Source of the DNA: a virus
IMG/VR virus record: IMGVR_UViG_3300020179_000098
Span: 1 to 33,626 of that record
Length of the DNA stretch: 33,626 nucleotides
Strand: one strand, 5' to 3'
Part shown: positions 28,012-33,626 of the stretch, piece by piece
How the letters are laid out: every line of letters begins with the position of its first letter
How positions within the stretch are numbered: position 1 is the stretch's first letter
Notes under the pieces: generated by a model
What the model saw: only the letters and a program-made list of their open reading frames with translations
Told to the model about the DNA's origin: nothing
Database searches by the model: none
Program-made: the position numbers and the translations under genes

Positions 28012-28605
28012 ATGGCTATTACGATTGGATCAAATTTTGTAAGAAGTGATGGATCAATGGACTGGCGGGTGAGTACATCCAACGTTGTGGAAAGATTCAC
28101 AACACAAGCCATTGCTTCTGGTAATGATTACCAGCCAGCATTTAGTTATCATGGAACTAATGGTTGGGTATATTACTCGGCAAATACTTGGAATGAAATG
28201 CGTGATAATTATTGGGGAGGTTTAGCTGGATATCAAAAGGGTCCGGGATCTTATGGGATGAACTCTAACTGGAGATATTATGCCCCTAGACAAGGTTATT
28301 ACTATTTTCACGTAGATCTCTATACATTATGCGATAGTAACGATACGAATAATTATACTCACTTGTTATTTGGTAGAAATGGTAATGTGAGTTGGATGCC
28401 TAGTGGAAGAACTCCATATACAATTTATGGTCATGGAAATAAGAGAGGTAGTGGTGGTGGCCAATATCCAAGTGGACCAAATATTTCAGCAGTAATGTTT
28501 TTAACTGAAGGTCAATATTGTAGTGTATATAATTACAAAGGTAATAGTACAAGTACAAGAGTTTACATGGCTCATAGTTATTTTTGTGGTCACTTAATTT
28601 CTTAA
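28012..28605 (+). CDS. C1q/TNF-like adhesin-type protein, copy 1
   Basis: A 197-residue protein that looks like a free-standing C1q/TNF-type jelly roll. It has GSYGMNSNWRYYAPRQGYYYF (the F.AP..G.Y.F core of C1q domains), a LTEGQYCSVYNY strand where C1q domains have L..GD.V, and a final YFCGHLIS like the C1q terminus FSG.LI. By my count it has 22 Tyr and 6 Trp, which is very aromatic. It is the first of three tandem paralogues. C1q-like domains trimerise and bind ligands, so a fibre-tip or decoration role is plausible. No signal peptide or coiled-coil stalk is present, so it would need another protein to anchor it. Confidence 0.75.
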   Translation: MAITIGSNFVRSDGSMDWRVSTSNVVERFTTQAIASGNDYQPAFSYHGTNGWVYYSANTWNEMRDNYWGGLAGYQKGPGSYGMNSNWRYYAPRQGYYYFHVDLYTLCDSNDTNNYTHLLFGRNGNVSWMPSGRTPYTIYGHGNKRGSGGGQYPSGPNISAVMFLTEGQYCSVYNYKGNSTSTRVYMAHSYFCGHLIS

Positions 28606-28620
28606 GAGAGGGTATCAATA

Positions 28621-29205
28621 ATGGCAATTACAATAACCAGTAATAATGTTATCTCAAATACTGATCTAAGATTTAGACCAGGAAATACCGATTACCCTTT
28701 ATATTATTACTCAAATGGACCAAGATATAGTGATAGAACACCAGCATTTACTGCAGAAGGTACTGCAGGTTGGTTGTATCATAATAATATGAGTGGTGGT
28801 GCTAGTGCTGGAAATGCAGTGTTTGCAAATGCAATGGGTTGGAACTGGCAGCAGCAGGGTGCAGGATCTTATGGAATGAATTCAAATGGAAGATATTATG
28901 CACCTCTTTCTGGATACTATTATTTTTATTTTTCAACATATTTTCATAATGATAATAACTCTACAAATTATATTCACTTAAATTTTGTAAAAAATGATGG
29001 ATATGGTTGGAATAATGGAAGAACGCCACATAACATATATGGTCACGGAACCCCCTACACTTATGAGGATGGAATAGTAGTTTCTTGCAACATGTATCTA
29101 GGTCAGGGCGAATATTGTGCTATTAGACCTCCATACTGGAACAGTAATAATCAATCCAGAATTTATGCATCTCACTCAACATTTTCTGGTTGTCTTATTG
29201 GATAA
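28621..29205 (+). CDS. C1q/TNF-like adhesin-type protein, copy 2
   Basis: A 194-residue paralogue of the 28012-28605 protein. It shares GSYGMNSNGRYYAPLSGYYYF, a NYIHLNF strand, GRTPHNIYGHG and the C-terminal FSGCLIG. The first ~70 residues (RFRPGNTDYPLYYYS, AGWLYHNNMSGG) differ substantially, as expected if the exposed loops carry specificity. The Shine-Dalgarno sequence is GAGAGGG at 28606-28612, and only 15 bases separate it from copy 1, so the two are probably on one transcript. Confidence 0.75.
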   Translation: MAITITSNNVISNTDLRFRPGNTDYPLYYYSNGPRYSDRTPAFTAEGTAGWLYHNNMSGGASAGNAVFANAMGWNWQQQGAGSYGMNSNGRYYAPLSGYYYFYFSTYFHNDNNSTNYIHLNFVKNDGYGWNNGRTPHNIYGHGTPYTYEDGIVVSCNMYLGQGEYCAIRPPYWNSNNQSRIYASHSTFSGCLIG

Positions 29206-29208
29206 ATA
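29201..29208 (+). promoter_or_regulatory. Late promoter candidate (GATAAATA)
   Basis: One mismatch from TATAAATA; it contains the TAA stop of copy 2 (29203-29205) and lies 22 bases before copy 3. Confidence 0.5.
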
Positions 29209-29216
29209 TTTTTAAT

Positions 29217-29222
29217 AGGAGA
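29217..29222 (+). promoter_or_regulatory. Ribosome binding site (AGGAGA) for copy 3
   Basis: AGGAGA eight bases before the ATG at 29231. Confidence 0.65.
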
Positions 29223-29230
29223 ACTCTAAA

Positions 29231-29827
29231 ATGGCAATCATCATAGGCGATAATTATATTGGTTGCGATCAAGCAACGATGAGTTTTAATGTTAATACCA
29301 ATACTAATGTCGCCAATATCAATAGTACGAGTGGAAGACAGTTTAATACTCCATCTTTTTATGCTACTTGCACTCAAGATGCCTGGAGATATTGGGGTCA
29401 AATGAGTGGGGCCAACACCTGGAGAAATACAGATGCTTGGGGAACAAATAATAATTGGGCAGTAACGCAGAGAGCTCAAGGATCATATGGTTTTGATACA
29501 ACTTACGGCAGATATTATGCTCCAGTAAGTGGATATTATGTTTTTGGTCAGACATACTATGCATATAGTGATAGTAATGCATATAATTACATGCATATCA
29601 ATTTTAATAAAAATAATGGAACAGGTTATAACGGCCAGGGCCGCCATGGTCATTCAATCTTTGGACATCCAGACCACATTTCACATCAAGCAGGAATAAA
29701 TCATGAGAGTGTAATTTATTGTGATCAAGGTCAGTTTGTAAATCCAGCTCCATATCTAGGAACTGGAAATGGTGCTGGTAGAATTTATATGGGCCACTTC
29801 CATTTCTATGGACACCTGTGTCCATAA
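29231..29827 (+). CDS. C1q/TNF-like adhesin-type protein, copy 3
   Basis: A 198-residue paralogue of the two preceding proteins. The core GSYGFDTTYGRYYAPVSGYYVF, the NYMHINFNKNNGTGY strand pair, an HSIFGHP loop and the C-terminal HFHFYGHLCP align with them. It is the most diverged, with a different N-terminal ~75 residues and a His-rich loop (GRHGHSIFGHPDHISHQAG) that could bind metal (inference). It has its own near-consensus late promoter and a good Shine-Dalgarno sequence. Confidence 0.75.
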   Translation: MAIIIGDNYIGCDQATMSFNVNTNTNVANINSTSGRQFNTPSFYATCTQDAWRYWGQMSGANTWRNTDAWGTNNNWAVTQRAQGSYGFDTTYGRYYAPVSGYYVFGQTYYAYSDSNAYNYMHINFNKNNGTGYNGQGRHGHSIFGHPDHISHQAGINHESVIYCDQGQFVNPAPYLGTGNGAGRIYMGHFHFYGHLCP

Positions 29828-29861: not shown

Positions 29862-30206
29862 ATGGCTGTAACTCTGAGTGTAGAATTAACTGATCTGGAG
29901 TATGCTGCTCTCGCTCATATTGCAGTAGATCCTCATGATTGGTTTCAAGACATGGTAAAACTTCGTTGCAGAAATACAATTGCAGAAGTAGCCAATAATA
30001 GAATTAAAGAAATGATTGCAGATCCTGCAGTAACAACAATTCCTGCAGATAAAAATACAATTTTCCAAAATATGATGGATTCTGGGGAGTTAAAATCTTT
30101 AGCTCAAATGACTGAAGAAGAAACTGAAAGAACGAGAGCCATGGTAACAACTATGGGAGATCTTATCCCAGAAACTCCTGCTTTAAATGCAGATCATTTA
30201 AAATAA
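29862..30206 (+). CDS. Small conserved phage protein near fibre genes
   Basis: A 114-residue, mostly helical protein with ELTDLEYAALAHIAVDPHDW at the N-terminus and a TTIPADKNTIF segment in the middle. I recall small proteins with this LEY.AL...A.DP..W pattern, followed by ADP..T.IPADK, in the fibre regions of many phages; their function is not established to my knowledge. It has its own late promoter and Shine-Dalgarno sequence. Its 3' end overlaps the convergent minus-strand gene by nine bases. Confidence 0.75.
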   Translation: MAVTLSVELTDLEYAALAHIAVDPHDWFQDMVKLRCRNTIAEVANNRIKEMIADPAVTTIPADKNTIFQNMMDSGELKSLAQMTEEETERTRAMVTTMGDLIPETPALNADHLK

Positions 30207-30806
30207 GCATTTCAAATTAAAAGAGATACTAATTCTATAATTTTTAGATTCTTTTACTGAGTGTAAAAATTCAGAGGGAAATATGATTATATTTCCCTCT
30301 TTTATGTTGTCTGTAAAATATAAATTACCTGGAGATTCTGCATATTCATATTTTGTGCCGTGTGCATAAAAAATAGTAGTATTTGGTTCATTTAGTTCCA
30401 ACAGATAAATTCCTGAAAAGGTAGAGCCCGAGTGTTCATGTACTTCTTGAGAATAACCTGGTTGATAAACGTTGTACCAGATTTCTTCCAATATGGTTTG
30501 TTTGGGATTTTTTCTGCCGGCGTAAGAAGGATGATTAAATAGATCTTGCAAGGCTGGATCTATTATTTCGTTTACAATTTTTTCTGTAAAAATACTTTTT
30601 ACTTCTTCACTATCTCGTTCAAAGAAAGAAGTAATAATTTCACAGTTCCAGACACTATTTGCATTTTTTCTTATTTGATTTGGATAATTGTAAAATTTTT
30701 TATCTTTACTTTGTTCTTCTATGGTTGAAAATATTTGTTCTTTTATTTCTTTGTGATTTTTAACTTCTTTGATGAAAAGAAATGGTGCTGGCCAAGAAAG
30801 TAACAT
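30198..30806 (-). CDS. 2OG-Fe(II) oxygenase family protein (PF13759-like)
   Basis: A 202-residue protein and the only convincing minus-strand gene in the window. The pattern matches the short phage-type 2OG-Fe(II) oxygenases: W-N at residues 109-112, HEHSGSTFSGIYLLEL (His123, His125), a GNIIIFPSEFLHSV block (His182), and RISISFN (Arg191 as the likely 2-oxoglutarate ligand). The family hydroxylates or oxidises substrates using 2-oxoglutarate, O2 and iron; the substrate here is unknown. It is transcribed divergently from the halogenase and converges with the 29862-30206 gene. No clear Shine-Dalgarno sequence precedes its ATG. The length is normal for the family and no key residue is missing. 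Confidence 0.8.
   Translation of the reverse strand: MLLSWPAPFLFIKEVKNHKEIKEQIFSTIEEQSKDKKFYNYPNQIRKNANSVWNCEIITSFFERDSEEVKSIFTEKIVNEIIDPALQDLFNHPSYAGRKNPKQTILEEIWYNVYQPGYSQEVHEHSGSTFSGIYLLELNEPNTTIFYAHGTKYEYAESPGNLYFTDNIKEGNIIIFPSEFLHSVKESKNYRISISFNLKCLF
30273..30300 (+). terminator. Hairpin, probable terminator of the fibre-region transcript
   Basis: A perfect 12-bp stem (AGAGGGAAATAT, 30273-30284, with ATATTTCCCTCT, 30289-30300) and a GATT loop, followed by TTTA. It lies 66 bases past the plus-strand stop at 30206 but inside the minus-strand oxygenase CDS. The T-run is short on the plus strand. Confidence 0.5.
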
Positions 30807-30880
30807 AAAACATCATAAAAATAGTATAATATATAGTATGTTAAAACATATTGAAGTTTGTTAATTTTTGGAGAATATTA
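30807..30880. promoter_or_regulatory. Divergent intergenic region with -10-like element
   Basis: Very AT-rich spacer between the divergent oxygenase and halogenase genes. TATAAT at 30825-30830 is a perfect sigma70-type -10 hexamer for the plus strand, but no clear TTGACA lies about 17 bases upstream. There is no TATAAATA octamer here, so this cassette may be expressed at a different time from the flanking late genes. Confidence 0.4.
30870..30874 (+). promoter_or_regulatory. Ribosome binding site (GGAGA) fixing the halogenase start
   Basis: GGAGA six bases before the ATG at 30881. It favours that ATG over the in-frame TTG at 30851. Confidence 0.7.
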
Positions 30881-32434
30881 ATGAGAATTAATAAGGTCGT
30901 GATTGTTGGCGGCGGAAGTTCGGGATGGATGACTGCAGCGGGACTATGTAAAAATTTTGATGATTTAGATGTAACACTCATTGAATCTAAAGATATTAAA
31001 ACAATGGGTGTTGGCGAGTCTACTCTTGGTCAATTTAATAGTTTTTTACGACTAATTGGTCTAGATAAAGACGATTATTGGATGAAAGAAGTTGACGGTA
31101 CATATAAAATTTCTATTAAATTTACAGATTTCAGAGAAAAAGACTCTGTATTTCACTACCCATTTGGCCATCATAATGCAGAAAATATTCCTAGAGGATT
31201 GGATTGTTGGCCCTTGTTAAGGCAGATAAATCCAGAATACAATACTTTAGAAAAATTTGCTAGATTTTACCATCCTTTTGTTCATCTTGCTGAAGAAGGT
31301 AAGATGACGTATAACGATGATGATAGTTTAGTAGGTTTTAAATTTAAGAGTGATACTGCATACCATATAGATGCTATCAAATTTGGAATATTTTTAAGAG
31401 ATAAGATTTGTTTGCCTGCAGGCGTTCATCATATTACTGAAGAAATTATTGATATTAAGAAAAAAGAAAATGGAGATATTGATTATCTCTTATCTGAATC
31501 TGGAATAAAATTAGAAGCAGATCTTTTTATAGACTGTACAGGATTCAAGTCACTTCTTCTTGAAGAAACAATGGGATCTAAATTTATTTCATTTAATGAA
31601 ACTTTGGTCAATGATAAAGCATTGGCTGCAAAAGTTCAGTATAATGATATTGAAAAAGAAATGGAAAATGTTACAAATTGCACTGCTATTAAAAATGGGT
31701 GGGTTTGGAATATTCCACTATGGAATAGAATTGGTACAGGATATTGTTATTCAAGTAAATTTGTTTCAAGAGAGCAAGCTGAAATTGAATTTAGAAACCA
31801 TCTAAAAAAACAAGGAAAAGAATTGCCGGATGATTATGAATTCAATGAGATTAATATTCGTCATGGTAAAAGAGAAAAAGGTTGGGTAGGAAATGTTCTT
31901 GGTGTTGGTCTTTCTTACGGATTTATTGAACCTCTAGAATCTACCGGACTATTAACAACTCATGAAAACATTTATAAGTTAGTCAGAACTTTACAAAGAA
32001 GAGATCGTTGGGTTTGTGGTCTTGATAAATCTATCTACAATAGATGGTTAGATGAACTATTAGATGGATGTAGATCTTTTATTGAGATGCACTATGCACT
32101 TTCAATGAGAGATGATACTGAATATTGGAAACATGTCACAAGTATCCCATATATCAATGAATATGATGTTCACCAATTAGAAGTTGGTGTTTTTAGGCAT
32201 CCAAACTTTGGTGGATTAATTGGAGGACTTCCATATATTGCTGCTGGTATGGGTTATCTCCCAACATATGTTTTAGGAACTGGTGCTCCAGGAAGTGGAA
32301 CAATTTCTCCCGAAGAAGTTGAGTACTTTAATGATATCAATAAACAATTTATGATGTTTACAGACCAAATTAAAGCGTATGTAGACACACTACCTACACA
32401 TTATCAATTCTTAAAAGACAATATTTACTCATGA
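30881..32434 (+). CDS. Flavin-dependent halogenase (tryptophan halogenase family)
   Basis: A 517-residue protein, a typical length for the family. Halogenases of this type use FADH2, O2 and halide to make HOX, which reacts via a lysine with the substrate. Visible motifs are the FAD-binding VIVGGGSSGW (residues 7-16), GVGEST (43-48), the catalytic Lys76 in GTYKISIKF (PrnA Lys79 position), the diagnostic W274-x-W276-x-I-P motif, and EPLESTG (350-356), which includes the conserved Glu region. All expected residues are present, so activity is likely. A marine cyanophage relative (VirX1, phage Syn10) has been described as a flavin-dependent halogenase that prefers iodide. No flavin reductase is visible nearby; the host must supply FADH2. 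Its stop overlaps the next start (ATGA, 32431-32434). The substrate is unknown. Confidence 0.88.
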   Translation: MRINKVVIVGGGSSGWMTAAGLCKNFDDLDVTLIESKDIKTMGVGESTLGQFNSFLRLIGLDKDDYWMKEVDGTYKISIKFTDFREKDSVFHYPFGHHNAENIPRGLDCWPLLRQINPEYNTLEKFARFYHPFVHLAEEGKMTYNDDDSLVGFKFKSDTAYHIDAIKFGIFLRDKICLPAGVHHITEEIIDIKKKENGDIDYLLSESGIKLEADLFIDCTGFKSLLLEETMGSKFISFNETLVNDKALAAKVQYNDIEKEMENVTNCTAIKNGWVWNIPLWNRIGTGYCYSSKFVSREQAEIEFRNHLKKQGKELPDDYEFNEINIRHGKREKGWVGNVLGVGLSYGFIEPLESTGLLTTHENIYKLVRTLQRRDRWVCGLDKSIYNRWLDELLDGCRSFIEMHYALSMRDDTEYWKHVTSIPYINEYDVHQLEVGVFRHPNFGGLIGGLPYIAAGMGYLPTYVLGTGAPGSGTISPEEVEYFNDINKQFMMFTDQIKAYVDTLPTHYQFLKDNIYS

Positions 32435-33120
32435 AACCAGATTTTTTAAAATTAAAATTTTTAGAAGATCAGAATGTTCAGGAAATTTCAAAATATCTTC
32501 AATCCAATCATGATTCAAATTGGCAAGATGGGTTATTAACTTTTGTTGGAGATCCAAACACTAAGAAGAATAAACAGTTAAGAAATCAGATATTTAAACA
32601 AAAAATATCAGACATAGTAACTCAATCTTTAAGTAGTAATAAAGAATATTCTAGATATACTTACCCCAAACATATACAAGATTTTTTAGTTACTAGAACT
32701 GATATTGGTGGATATTACAATCCACATAACGATATAGGATTGAACGGACATTATAGCACAACTATTTTCTTATCAGATCCAAATTCATATGAAGGTGGAG
32801 AACTCTGTTTATATTTGAATGGAGAAGAGGAAAAAATTAAGTTAGATCCAGGATATGGAGTTGTCTATAAAACTGGGATACCACATAGAGTCAGTAAAGT
32901 TTTATCTGGACAAAGAGATGTAATTATTTTCTGGACAATATCTTACTTTAAAGATCCATTTATATCTGAACTTTATTATGATTTGGCTGGAATATCGTTT
33001 AATTCAGACGATTTAAATATAATAACTACTCATTCAGATTTTGAAACTATAATGCAACAAAATTCTTTCAAATTGAATGGTATTCTTAATAATTTAATAA
33101 GAAGATACGCAGACATCTAA
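32431..33120 (+). CDS. PiuC-like 2OG-Fe(II) oxygenase (PKHD-type)
   Basis: A 229-residue protein translationally coupled to the halogenase by an ATGA overlap. The iron ligands are His99 and Asp101 (YNPHNDIGL) and His152 (GIPHRVSKV), with Arg162 (SGQRDVIIFW) as the likely 2-oxoglutarate contact. The EGGELCLYLNG segment and the final block after the Arg match PiuC/PKHD-type hydroxylases, which occur in many marine T4-like phages. The reaction is probably hydroxylation, substrate unknown. Coupling with the halogenase suggests they act in one pathway or on one target, but independent functions are possible. The gene is intact. Confidence 0.85.
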   Translation: MKPDFLKLKFLEDQNVQEISKYLQSNHDSNWQDGLLTFVGDPNTKKNKQLRNQIFKQKISDIVTQSLSSNKEYSRYTYPKHIQDFLVTRTDIGGYYNPHNDIGLNGHYSTTIFLSDPNSYEGGELCLYLNGEEEKIKLDPGYGVVYKTGIPHRVSKVLSGQRDVIIFWTISYFKDPFISELYYDLAGISFNSDDLNIITTHSDFETIMQQNSFKLNGILNNLIRRYADI

Positions 33121-33122
33121 AT

Positions 33123-33130
33123 TATAAATA
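33123..33130 (+). promoter_or_regulatory. Late promoter (TATAAATA) for gp13
   Basis: Exact T4 late octamer three bases after the stop at 33120. Its last bases are also part of the left arm of the terminator at 33126-33157. Confidence 0.7.
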
Positions 33131-33157
33131 CCTCTAGGAAACTAGGGGTATTTTTTT
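33126..33157 (+). terminator. Intrinsic terminator just before gp13
   Basis: Up to 12 paired bases (33126-33137 with 33142-33153, one T-G wobble), a GAAA tetraloop and seven T's (33151-33157) ending directly at the gp13 ATG. It should stop read-through from the oxygenase operon. Confidence 0.85.
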
Positions 33158-33626
33158 ATGGCGCAACCATCTAGTAGAGCGGAGTTGAAAGATTACTGCC
33201 TCAAACAATTAGGTAAGCCAGTTTTAGAAATAAATGTAGATGATGATCAGATTGATAATCTAATTGATGATGCGATTCAATATTTTCATGAGCGTCATTA
33301 CGATGGAATTGATCGTGTATTTTTAAAGCATAAACTTACTCCTGCAACTAAAAATATTTTAAAGCAGTCTGGCCCAGTTGGATCTTCAACAACTTCACCA
33401 AATGTTGTAGGCGCGGGAGTAACATCTCTTACTTATGTTGAAGGTGTAAATTATTTACCTTTGCCTGATTCTATTATTGGTGTTAATAATATTCTCAAAA
33501 TAAACTCAACAAATACTGCATCTGCTGGATTGTTTAATATAAAATATCAATTATTTTTAAATGATGTTTATTATTATGGTGCATTAGATCTTCTAAACTA
33601 TTCGATGGTTAAAAGATACCTAGAGG
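33158..33626 (+). CDS. 13: Neck protein gp13 (3' partial)
   Basis: The frame is open to the right edge (156 codons visible). The N-terminus MAQPSSRAELKDYCLKQLGKP, then VLEINVDDDQIDNLIDDAI, then HERHYDG is characteristic of gp13 neck proteins of T4-like marine phages. gp13 with gp14 closes the head and joins it to the tail. Its place after the fibre region agrees with the T4 order (wac-13-14). The ATG follows a T-run with no Shine-Dalgarno sequence, because the terminator occupies that space; the terminator stem itself holds AGGGG (33144-33148), which would be available only if the hairpin is open. Confidence 0.87.
   Translation, partial: MAQPSSRAELKDYCLKQLGKPVLEINVDDDQIDNLIDDAIQYFHERHYDGIDRVFLKHKLTPATKNILKQSGPVGSSTTSPNVVGAGVTSLTYVEGVNYLPLPDSIIGVNNILKINSTNTASAGLFNIKYQLFLNDVYYYGALDLLNYSMVKRYLE

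Follow-up and report, generated by a model that had tools for sequence, protein, structure and literature searches.

The marine phage record IMGVR_UViG_3300020179_000098 of IMG/VR (33,626 nucleotides), of which the window analysed here is the entire 33.6 kb, carries between its adhesin genes and the gene of neck protein gp13 an island of three predicted enzyme genes, which encode a flavin-dependent halogenase of VirX1 type and two 2-oxoglutarate (2OG)-Fe(II) oxygenases, OxyA and OxyB. The island is preceded by three tandem genes of small fibre-tip proteins with a predicted C1q fold and by a partner gene of these tips, small114. In viral contigs and in cultured phages, halogenase and 2OG genes are linked in a near-obligate manner with tandem small tips of two unrelated kinds. 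We lean, if only just, to the view that the tips and the tailoring enzymes form an exchangeable cassette between the adhesin genes and gp13, and that the adhesin tips are what the enzymes modify. The coupling was observed directly; the substrate, the product and the halide are our inferences. As judged by the baseplate protein gp8, the nearest relatives of the window are the T4-like Synechococcus phages S-SCSM2R (79.5% identity), Sf-FS3, and S-SSM7.

Linkage of tip genes with halogenase and 2OG oxygenase genes

A C1q-anchored search of viral contigs yielded 57 new loci. A halogenase gene is present in 40/40 strong-match C1q loci that have 2 kb or more of sequence downstream (the window and loci from a previous scan included), and in the six strong C1q loci without a halogenase the sequence ends just after the tips. 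In the cultured phages that bear VirX1-type halogenases, the corresponding tandem tips are glycine-rich (PF21722/phrog_863), and a further small gene separates them from the halogenase gene downstream. A scan anchored on these glycine-rich tips detected a halogenase at all 44 of 44 loci and a 2OG gene at 43 of them. Thus, the joint occurrence of tandem tips with halogenase and 2OG genes, as proposed for a cassette, was found for both tip types, with exceptions at distant C1q homologues. The latter (mostly 26-33% identity) usually retain small114, lack a halogenase, and, except in one case, are also without a 2OG gene. No locus contains both tip types, and the commonest copy number is three for each. 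The dereplicated halogenases adjacent to C1q and glycine-rich tips number 22 and 62, respectively, some of the loci being near-duplicates. All cultured records in which the Sf-FP1 glycine-rich tip has a close relative (14/14) also carry a VirX1-type halogenase, and in pelagiphage HTVC008M a glycine-rich protein gene stands just before a 2OG series upstream of gp13. The seemingly weak C1q matches in syn9-like loci were rejected, being really glycine-rich tips of PF21722.

Loci L313-L329, which are distant C1q loci that usually keep small114 and have no halogenase, lend themselves to use as negative comparators. The S-RIM44 records are of two sorts: KX349291/93/94/96 and NC_047734 contain a VirX1-type halogenase and glycine-rich tips, and in KX349292/95/97 and KU594607 the sole halogenase is a distant one (about 28% identity), with no close match to the glycine-rich tip.

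The main rival explanation is that the enzymes act in a small-molecule pathway, in which a halogenated and hydroxylated metabolite (antibiotic- or toxin-like, or a capsular sugar decoration) is made during infection. A ten-gene cluster of phage S-SSM6a, which corresponds to the S-SSM7 cluster at the same site as the window island, has been proposed to be a secondary-metabolite or capsule-decorating system (PMC7824862), the bacterial halogenases of the family have small aromatics as substrates, and numerous small molecules are halogenated by VirX1 (PMC8407142). A pathway of this kind would explain the enzymes, but not the linkage of 40/40 and 44/44 loci to two kinds of tips, and neither a scaffold-forming enzyme nor a peptide precursor was recognised among the searched open reading frames of the window, which is a fragment. 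The product of small114 was rejected as a peptide precursor, since its gene is a partner of the tips and not of the halogenase, and stays beside C1q tips where the halogenase is absent. On balance, we consider the small-molecule pathway rather unlikely.

The S-SSM6a/S-SSM7 cluster resembles the window island in its fibre-to-gp13 site and in the presence of a halogenase and several 2OG genes. It differs in that the halogenase belongs to a distant type (30% identity), and in that it encodes carbamoyltransferases and heptose enzymes, which are absent from the window. In the same interval of S-SSM7 (L029:13658-25848) and Sf-FS3 (L031:17905-27186), carbamoyltransferase, heptose enzyme, and 2OG genes come after Gly/Cys-rich tandem tips; this is another tip type with another enzyme set.

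Neighbourhood and ancestry of the island

A 2OG or JmjC gene lies within 3 kb of 64 of the 71 dereplicated viral halogenases (halogenase-anchored contigs with 3-kb flanks), as compared to a background of 20% at random positions in gp13-anchored contigs. Genes of the oxyB family abut 24 dereplicated halogenases. The 2OG profiles were seeded from these islands, and the controls used the same profiles. A preliminary description of this DNA had suggested a dedicated modification system, to be doubted if its three genes rarely co-occurred in relatives or were scattered; because the co-occurrence check failed to refute it, such a system is favoured over chance. To treat these families as known only singly would be incorrect, as cultured phages, among them syn9, Sf-FP1, S-RIM44, and S-CREM1, combine a halogenase with several 2OG genes at the site of the island. 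The link to adhesin tips, which is the best clue to the substrate, had been missed. A bacterial counterpart of the pairing was sought and rejected: with the phage-built profiles, 2OG families were detected within 8 kb at only 5/80 bacterial halogenase loci.

In contigs L113, L273, L274, and L275, three C1q genes and small114 are followed by divergent oxyA, one extra gene, halogenase, oxyB, and gp13; in L114, the order is halogenase, extra gene, oxyB, and gp13. The window halogenase is 70% identical to that of L113 and 61% to that of L114. Since L113 and L274 look nearly identical, the window-type arrangement represents few independent lineages. The fibre-to-gp13 interval of cultured cyanophages holds VirX1-type halogenases and a series of 2OG genes, and such islands were traced as far as gp13 in Sf-FP1 and S-RIM44, and over the remainder of the compared stretch in syn9, S-CREM1, P-TIM40, P-RSM6, S-WAM1, and S-SZBM1. 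Some islands additionally contain a JmjC_2 gene, such as that of syn9 gp49; the Pfam family JmjC_2 includes ribosomal protein hydroxylases.

In a 58-row halogenase tree, the C1q-linked halogenases form two clades that are well supported and lie apart from each other (minimum 2 changes), and hence shared ancestry alone does not explain the C1q linkage. The adjacency of oxyB requires at least 6 changes on the same tree. Two layouts occur, a co-directional one (window type) and a convergent one (L277-L310, L379/L381). In the five convergent contigs checked (those behind L291, L168, L296, L298, and L156), gp13 is on the strand of the C1q genes and about 18-22 kb further downstream, which places the convergent-type island in the same interval. 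Tips and island are missing together in the near relatives S-SCSM2R and S-CAM9, in which the site has neither tandem tips nor an island and the whole record is without a PF21722 match. S-SCSM2R is close to the window not only in gp8; the window gp13 (33158-33625, plus strand, cut by the window end; phrog_211, E 1.7e-18) is 83% identical to its neck protein.

A site that is empty in S-SCSM2R and S-CAM9 and full elsewhere would also be expected if the adhesin-gp13 interval were a permissive insertion site and the enzymes were passengers serving general metabolism (2-oxoglutarate/nitrogen status, DNA repair). The 2OG genes have indeed been linked to nitrogen metabolism or status and to DNA repair by Sullivan et al. 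(PMC3037559). Passenger genes should assort independently, but the halogenase, 2OG, and tip genes assort together at 90-100%, and do so in separate halogenase clades. Furthermore, in the gp13-anchored contigs, 2OG/halogenase genes are enriched within 3 kb upstream of gp13 (14/51) over downstream (3/45; Fisher p 0.014). For these reasons, we consider the passenger explanation very improbable.

Predicted enzymes of the island

The preliminary description had placed the three enzyme genes at 30198-33120, between adhesin genes and the neck gene, with intact catalytic motifs, an ATGA overlap of two of them, and the third divergent from the same spacer. The coordinates are right, the next gene being gp13, and the remaining details were borne out with a qualification that concerns the iron motif of OxyA. 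The halogenase gene (30881-32434, plus strand) encodes 517 amino acids (aa); its reading frame opens with TTG at 30851, and the ATG at 30881, which is preceded by GGAG, gives the 517-aa product. The PF04820 match (E 8.9e-102) spans profile positions 1-404 of 458, the match to phrog_2928 has E 9e-156, and the best PDB match is VirX1 (6qgm; E 4e-142, residues 2-516). Alignment to VirX1 locates GGGSSG at residue 10, K76 in TYK, WVWNIP at 274, and EPLES at 350, so that GxGxxG, WxWxIP, and the catalytic Lys and Glu are all present. In the tree, the window protein is placed in the VirX1 clade of 24 rows, among them those of syn9 and Sf-FP1. Profile, motifs, and tree thus assign this protein to the VirX1 type, of whose members halogenating activity and iodide preference would be expected.

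In VirX1 of cyanophage Syn10, which has been presented as the first viral halogenase to be characterised, the active site is open; the enzyme accepts large, bulky phenolic substrates and prefers iodide over bromide and bromide over chloride (PMC8407142). The window halogenase resembles it over the full length, with the catalytic motifs kept, at 47% identity. The syn9 halogenase matches that of the window equally well as the Syn10 enzyme does, and is also followed by 2OG genes; the tips of syn9 are glycine-rich, while those of the window are of the C1q type.

The oxyB gene (32431-33120, plus strand) shares ATGA with the halogenase gene, the TGA of the latter overlapping its ATG. Its 229-aa product is a predicted PKHD/PiuC-like 2OG oxygenase of PF13640 (E 2.2e-8; 35.4 bits vs. 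a cut-off of 27), in which the HxD...H...R motif is intact (PHND, PHRV, QRD). The label PiuC-like, used in the preliminary description, is appropriate, as the PDB matches include the Shewanella PKHD hydroxylase 3dkq (E 1.8e-13) and PiuC (E about 1e-8). These are distant matches that share PF13640 and the motif with OxyB; unlike the gene of PiuC, oxyB overlaps a halogenase gene and is linked to phage adhesin tips rather than to iron uptake.

The oxyA gene (30198-30806, minus strand) encodes a 202-aa predicted 2OG-Fe(II) oxygenase of PF13759 (E 2.9e-12; 47.3 bits vs. a cut-off of 27). The tails of oxyA and of the preceding 114-aa gene overlap by 9 base pairs (bp), and across a spacer of 74 bp (30807-30880) oxyA is divergent from the halogenase gene. 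Its putative iron motif consists of HEH and a distal H, i.e., HxH instead of the canonical HxD/E, which is a general feature of 2OG oxygenases and not of PF13759. The relatives checked in this family, syn9_48 and FP1_97, have HLH, and therefore HxH looks typical of the family. OxyA shares the family match and HxH...H with the cyanophage PF13759 oxygenases (phrog_81), but is at most about 36% identical to the copies of cultured phages and differs in its orientation relative to the halogenase gene.

Fibre-tip proteins and small114

The three tandem genes upstream of small114 (29862-30206, plus strand; 114 aa) encode proteins of one family, for which a C1q/TNF jelly-roll fold is predicted: tip 1 (28012-28605; 197 aa), tip 2 (28621-29205; 194 aa), and tip 3 (29231-29827; 198 aa), all on the plus strand. 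A search of PDB with the tip sequences gave nothing significant, and for this reason a fold search was made. With the AlphaFold model of tip 2, which is of medium confidence (pLDDT 70.8), the best Foldseek matches are C1q/TNF domains (E 2e-6, probability 1.00), and the matches include the short tail fibre domain of cyanophage A-1(L) (8ke9; E 4.8e-5). The predicted fold is shared with the latter; the window differs by its tandem trio with small114. The Pfam C1q score of the window protein is 12.6 bits, under the cut-off of 23.7, and that of a family member in L283 is 25.0. Of 50,697 cultured-phage records, none matched the C1q tips in sequence at E 0.01. The small114 gene adjoins C1q tips both where a halogenase is present and in the distant loci that are without it.

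In the window (28012-29827), L113, and L156/L163/L167/L168, the three tip copies form separate, position-matched lineages within each virus group, as if they were distinct subunits, perhaps of a heterotrimer.

Promoter motifs and hairpins

Late-promoter-like motifs precede several genes that surround the enzymes: AATAAATA 30 nucleotides upstream of the start of C1q tip 1, GATAAATA 30 nucleotides upstream of tip 3, TATAAATA 32 nucleotides upstream of small114, and TATAAATA again at 33123-33130, before gp13. The sequence ATAAATA, which we take to be the T4-type late promoter, occurs in 8 copies on the plus strand of the window; seven of them are within 60 nucleotides of a gene start, including those of tips 1 and 3, small114, and gp13, and none precedes oxyA, the halogenase gene, or oxyB. 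Similarly, in L113 and L273-275 such motifs precede two tips, small114, and gp13, but not the enzymes. The enzyme island is flanked by terminator-like hairpins. One of them, with a 12-bp stem followed by TTTAT (30273-30300, plus strand), is inside the 3' end of oxyA, and L275 has a different hairpin at the matching place. The other (33126-33153, plus strand) directly precedes gp13 and is conserved, together with TATAAATA, in L113, L275, and L114. Co-transcription of the enzymes with the late fibre genes is unsupported, as no late motif and a terminator-like hairpin are found before them. Because of the divergent 74-bp spacer, a presumed enzyme promoter region without a late motif, the enzyme genes would constitute a separate transcription unit, possibly expressed ahead of the late genes.

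Expression ahead of the fibres would also fit an explanation in which the enzymes alter glycans or receptors of the host envelope, e.g., for superinfection exclusion, and travel with the tips by virtue of the same receptor. This would account for the linkage to adhesin tips, and the islands of S-SSM7 and Sf-FS3 include sugar-nucleotide and heptose enzymes. Profile searches recognised no glycosyltransferase or membrane-targeted gene in the window island, and, to our knowledge, flavin halogenases do not act on glycans. We therefore regard modification of the host surface as improbable.

Possible role of the cassette

If the enzymes tailor the tips, they would be made from the promoter in the divergent spacer, and the halogenase would add halogen to aromatic side chains of the tip proteins before or during fibre assembly. 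The oxygenases may hydroxylate other residues of these proteins, and the modified tips could differ in stability or in how they bind the receptor. Gain, loss, and exchange would then affect tips and their matching enzymes as a unit. The broader claim that phages halogenate and hydroxylate their own receptor-binding tips by dedicated cassette enzymes, which would mean that a virus encodes the post-translational halogenation of one of its virion proteins, seems to us plausible but not quite probable.

Several observations weigh against the tailoring of tips. The linkage may stem from co-transfer of genes whose products are not related as enzyme and substrate, and the enzymes may act earlier than the fibres, as they are without the late motif found before the tips and gp13. 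A halogenase is located away from the adhesin-gp13 site in S-B64, S-MbCM6, P-SSM2, and HTVC008M, and five C1q loci with scores of 60-70 bits are without a halogenase. Moreover, the anchor alignments were built from halogenase-linked tips, so that distant tips are under-sampled and coupling at greater distance is under-tested, and the contigs are fragments. The tyrosine content of tips was rejected as evidence of halogenation, since Tyr accounts for 8.5% of residues in halogenase-positive tips vs. 9.4% in distant halogenase-free C1q tips. Trp and His are higher in the halogenase-linked C1q tips, the linked and unlinked sets being different lineages.

Cyanophage halogenases and 2OG oxygenases have long been listed as auxiliary metabolic genes, with guesses at their role ranging from antibiotic protection to nitrogen sensing, and published readings favour antibiotic, secondary metabolite, or nitrogen metabolism. 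In the open-access literature, to which our search was mostly confined, we found no publication that links phage halogenases with fibre proteins. The near-obligate link to tips points to a concrete substrate and gives VirX1 a candidate natural target. Modification of tips, if true, would explain the purpose of VirX1-type halogenases and of the abundant 2OG oxygenases of marine phages, and would imply that the host-range proteins of phages may bear a side-chain chemistry which the genome does not reveal.

Additional observations on related islands

In L048, L151, and L179, a halogenase gene stands upstream of gp13, either directly or at a short distance, and no 2OG gene was detected between the two. 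Two syn9 genes annotated as 'DNA endonuclease V' and 'minor coat protein' (L019:12421-12939 and L019:12936-13547) encode 2OG-like proteins (a weak PF13640 match and DUF6445). A family of about 210-290 aa without a Pfam match, which is absent from the window, recurs in the islands (L113:5538-6365, in tandem in L277-L310, and syn9 gp43, L019:7577-8365), and its AlphaFold model (pLDDT 78.5) weakly resembles dUTPase/dCTP deaminase (Foldseek E 1.6e-3).

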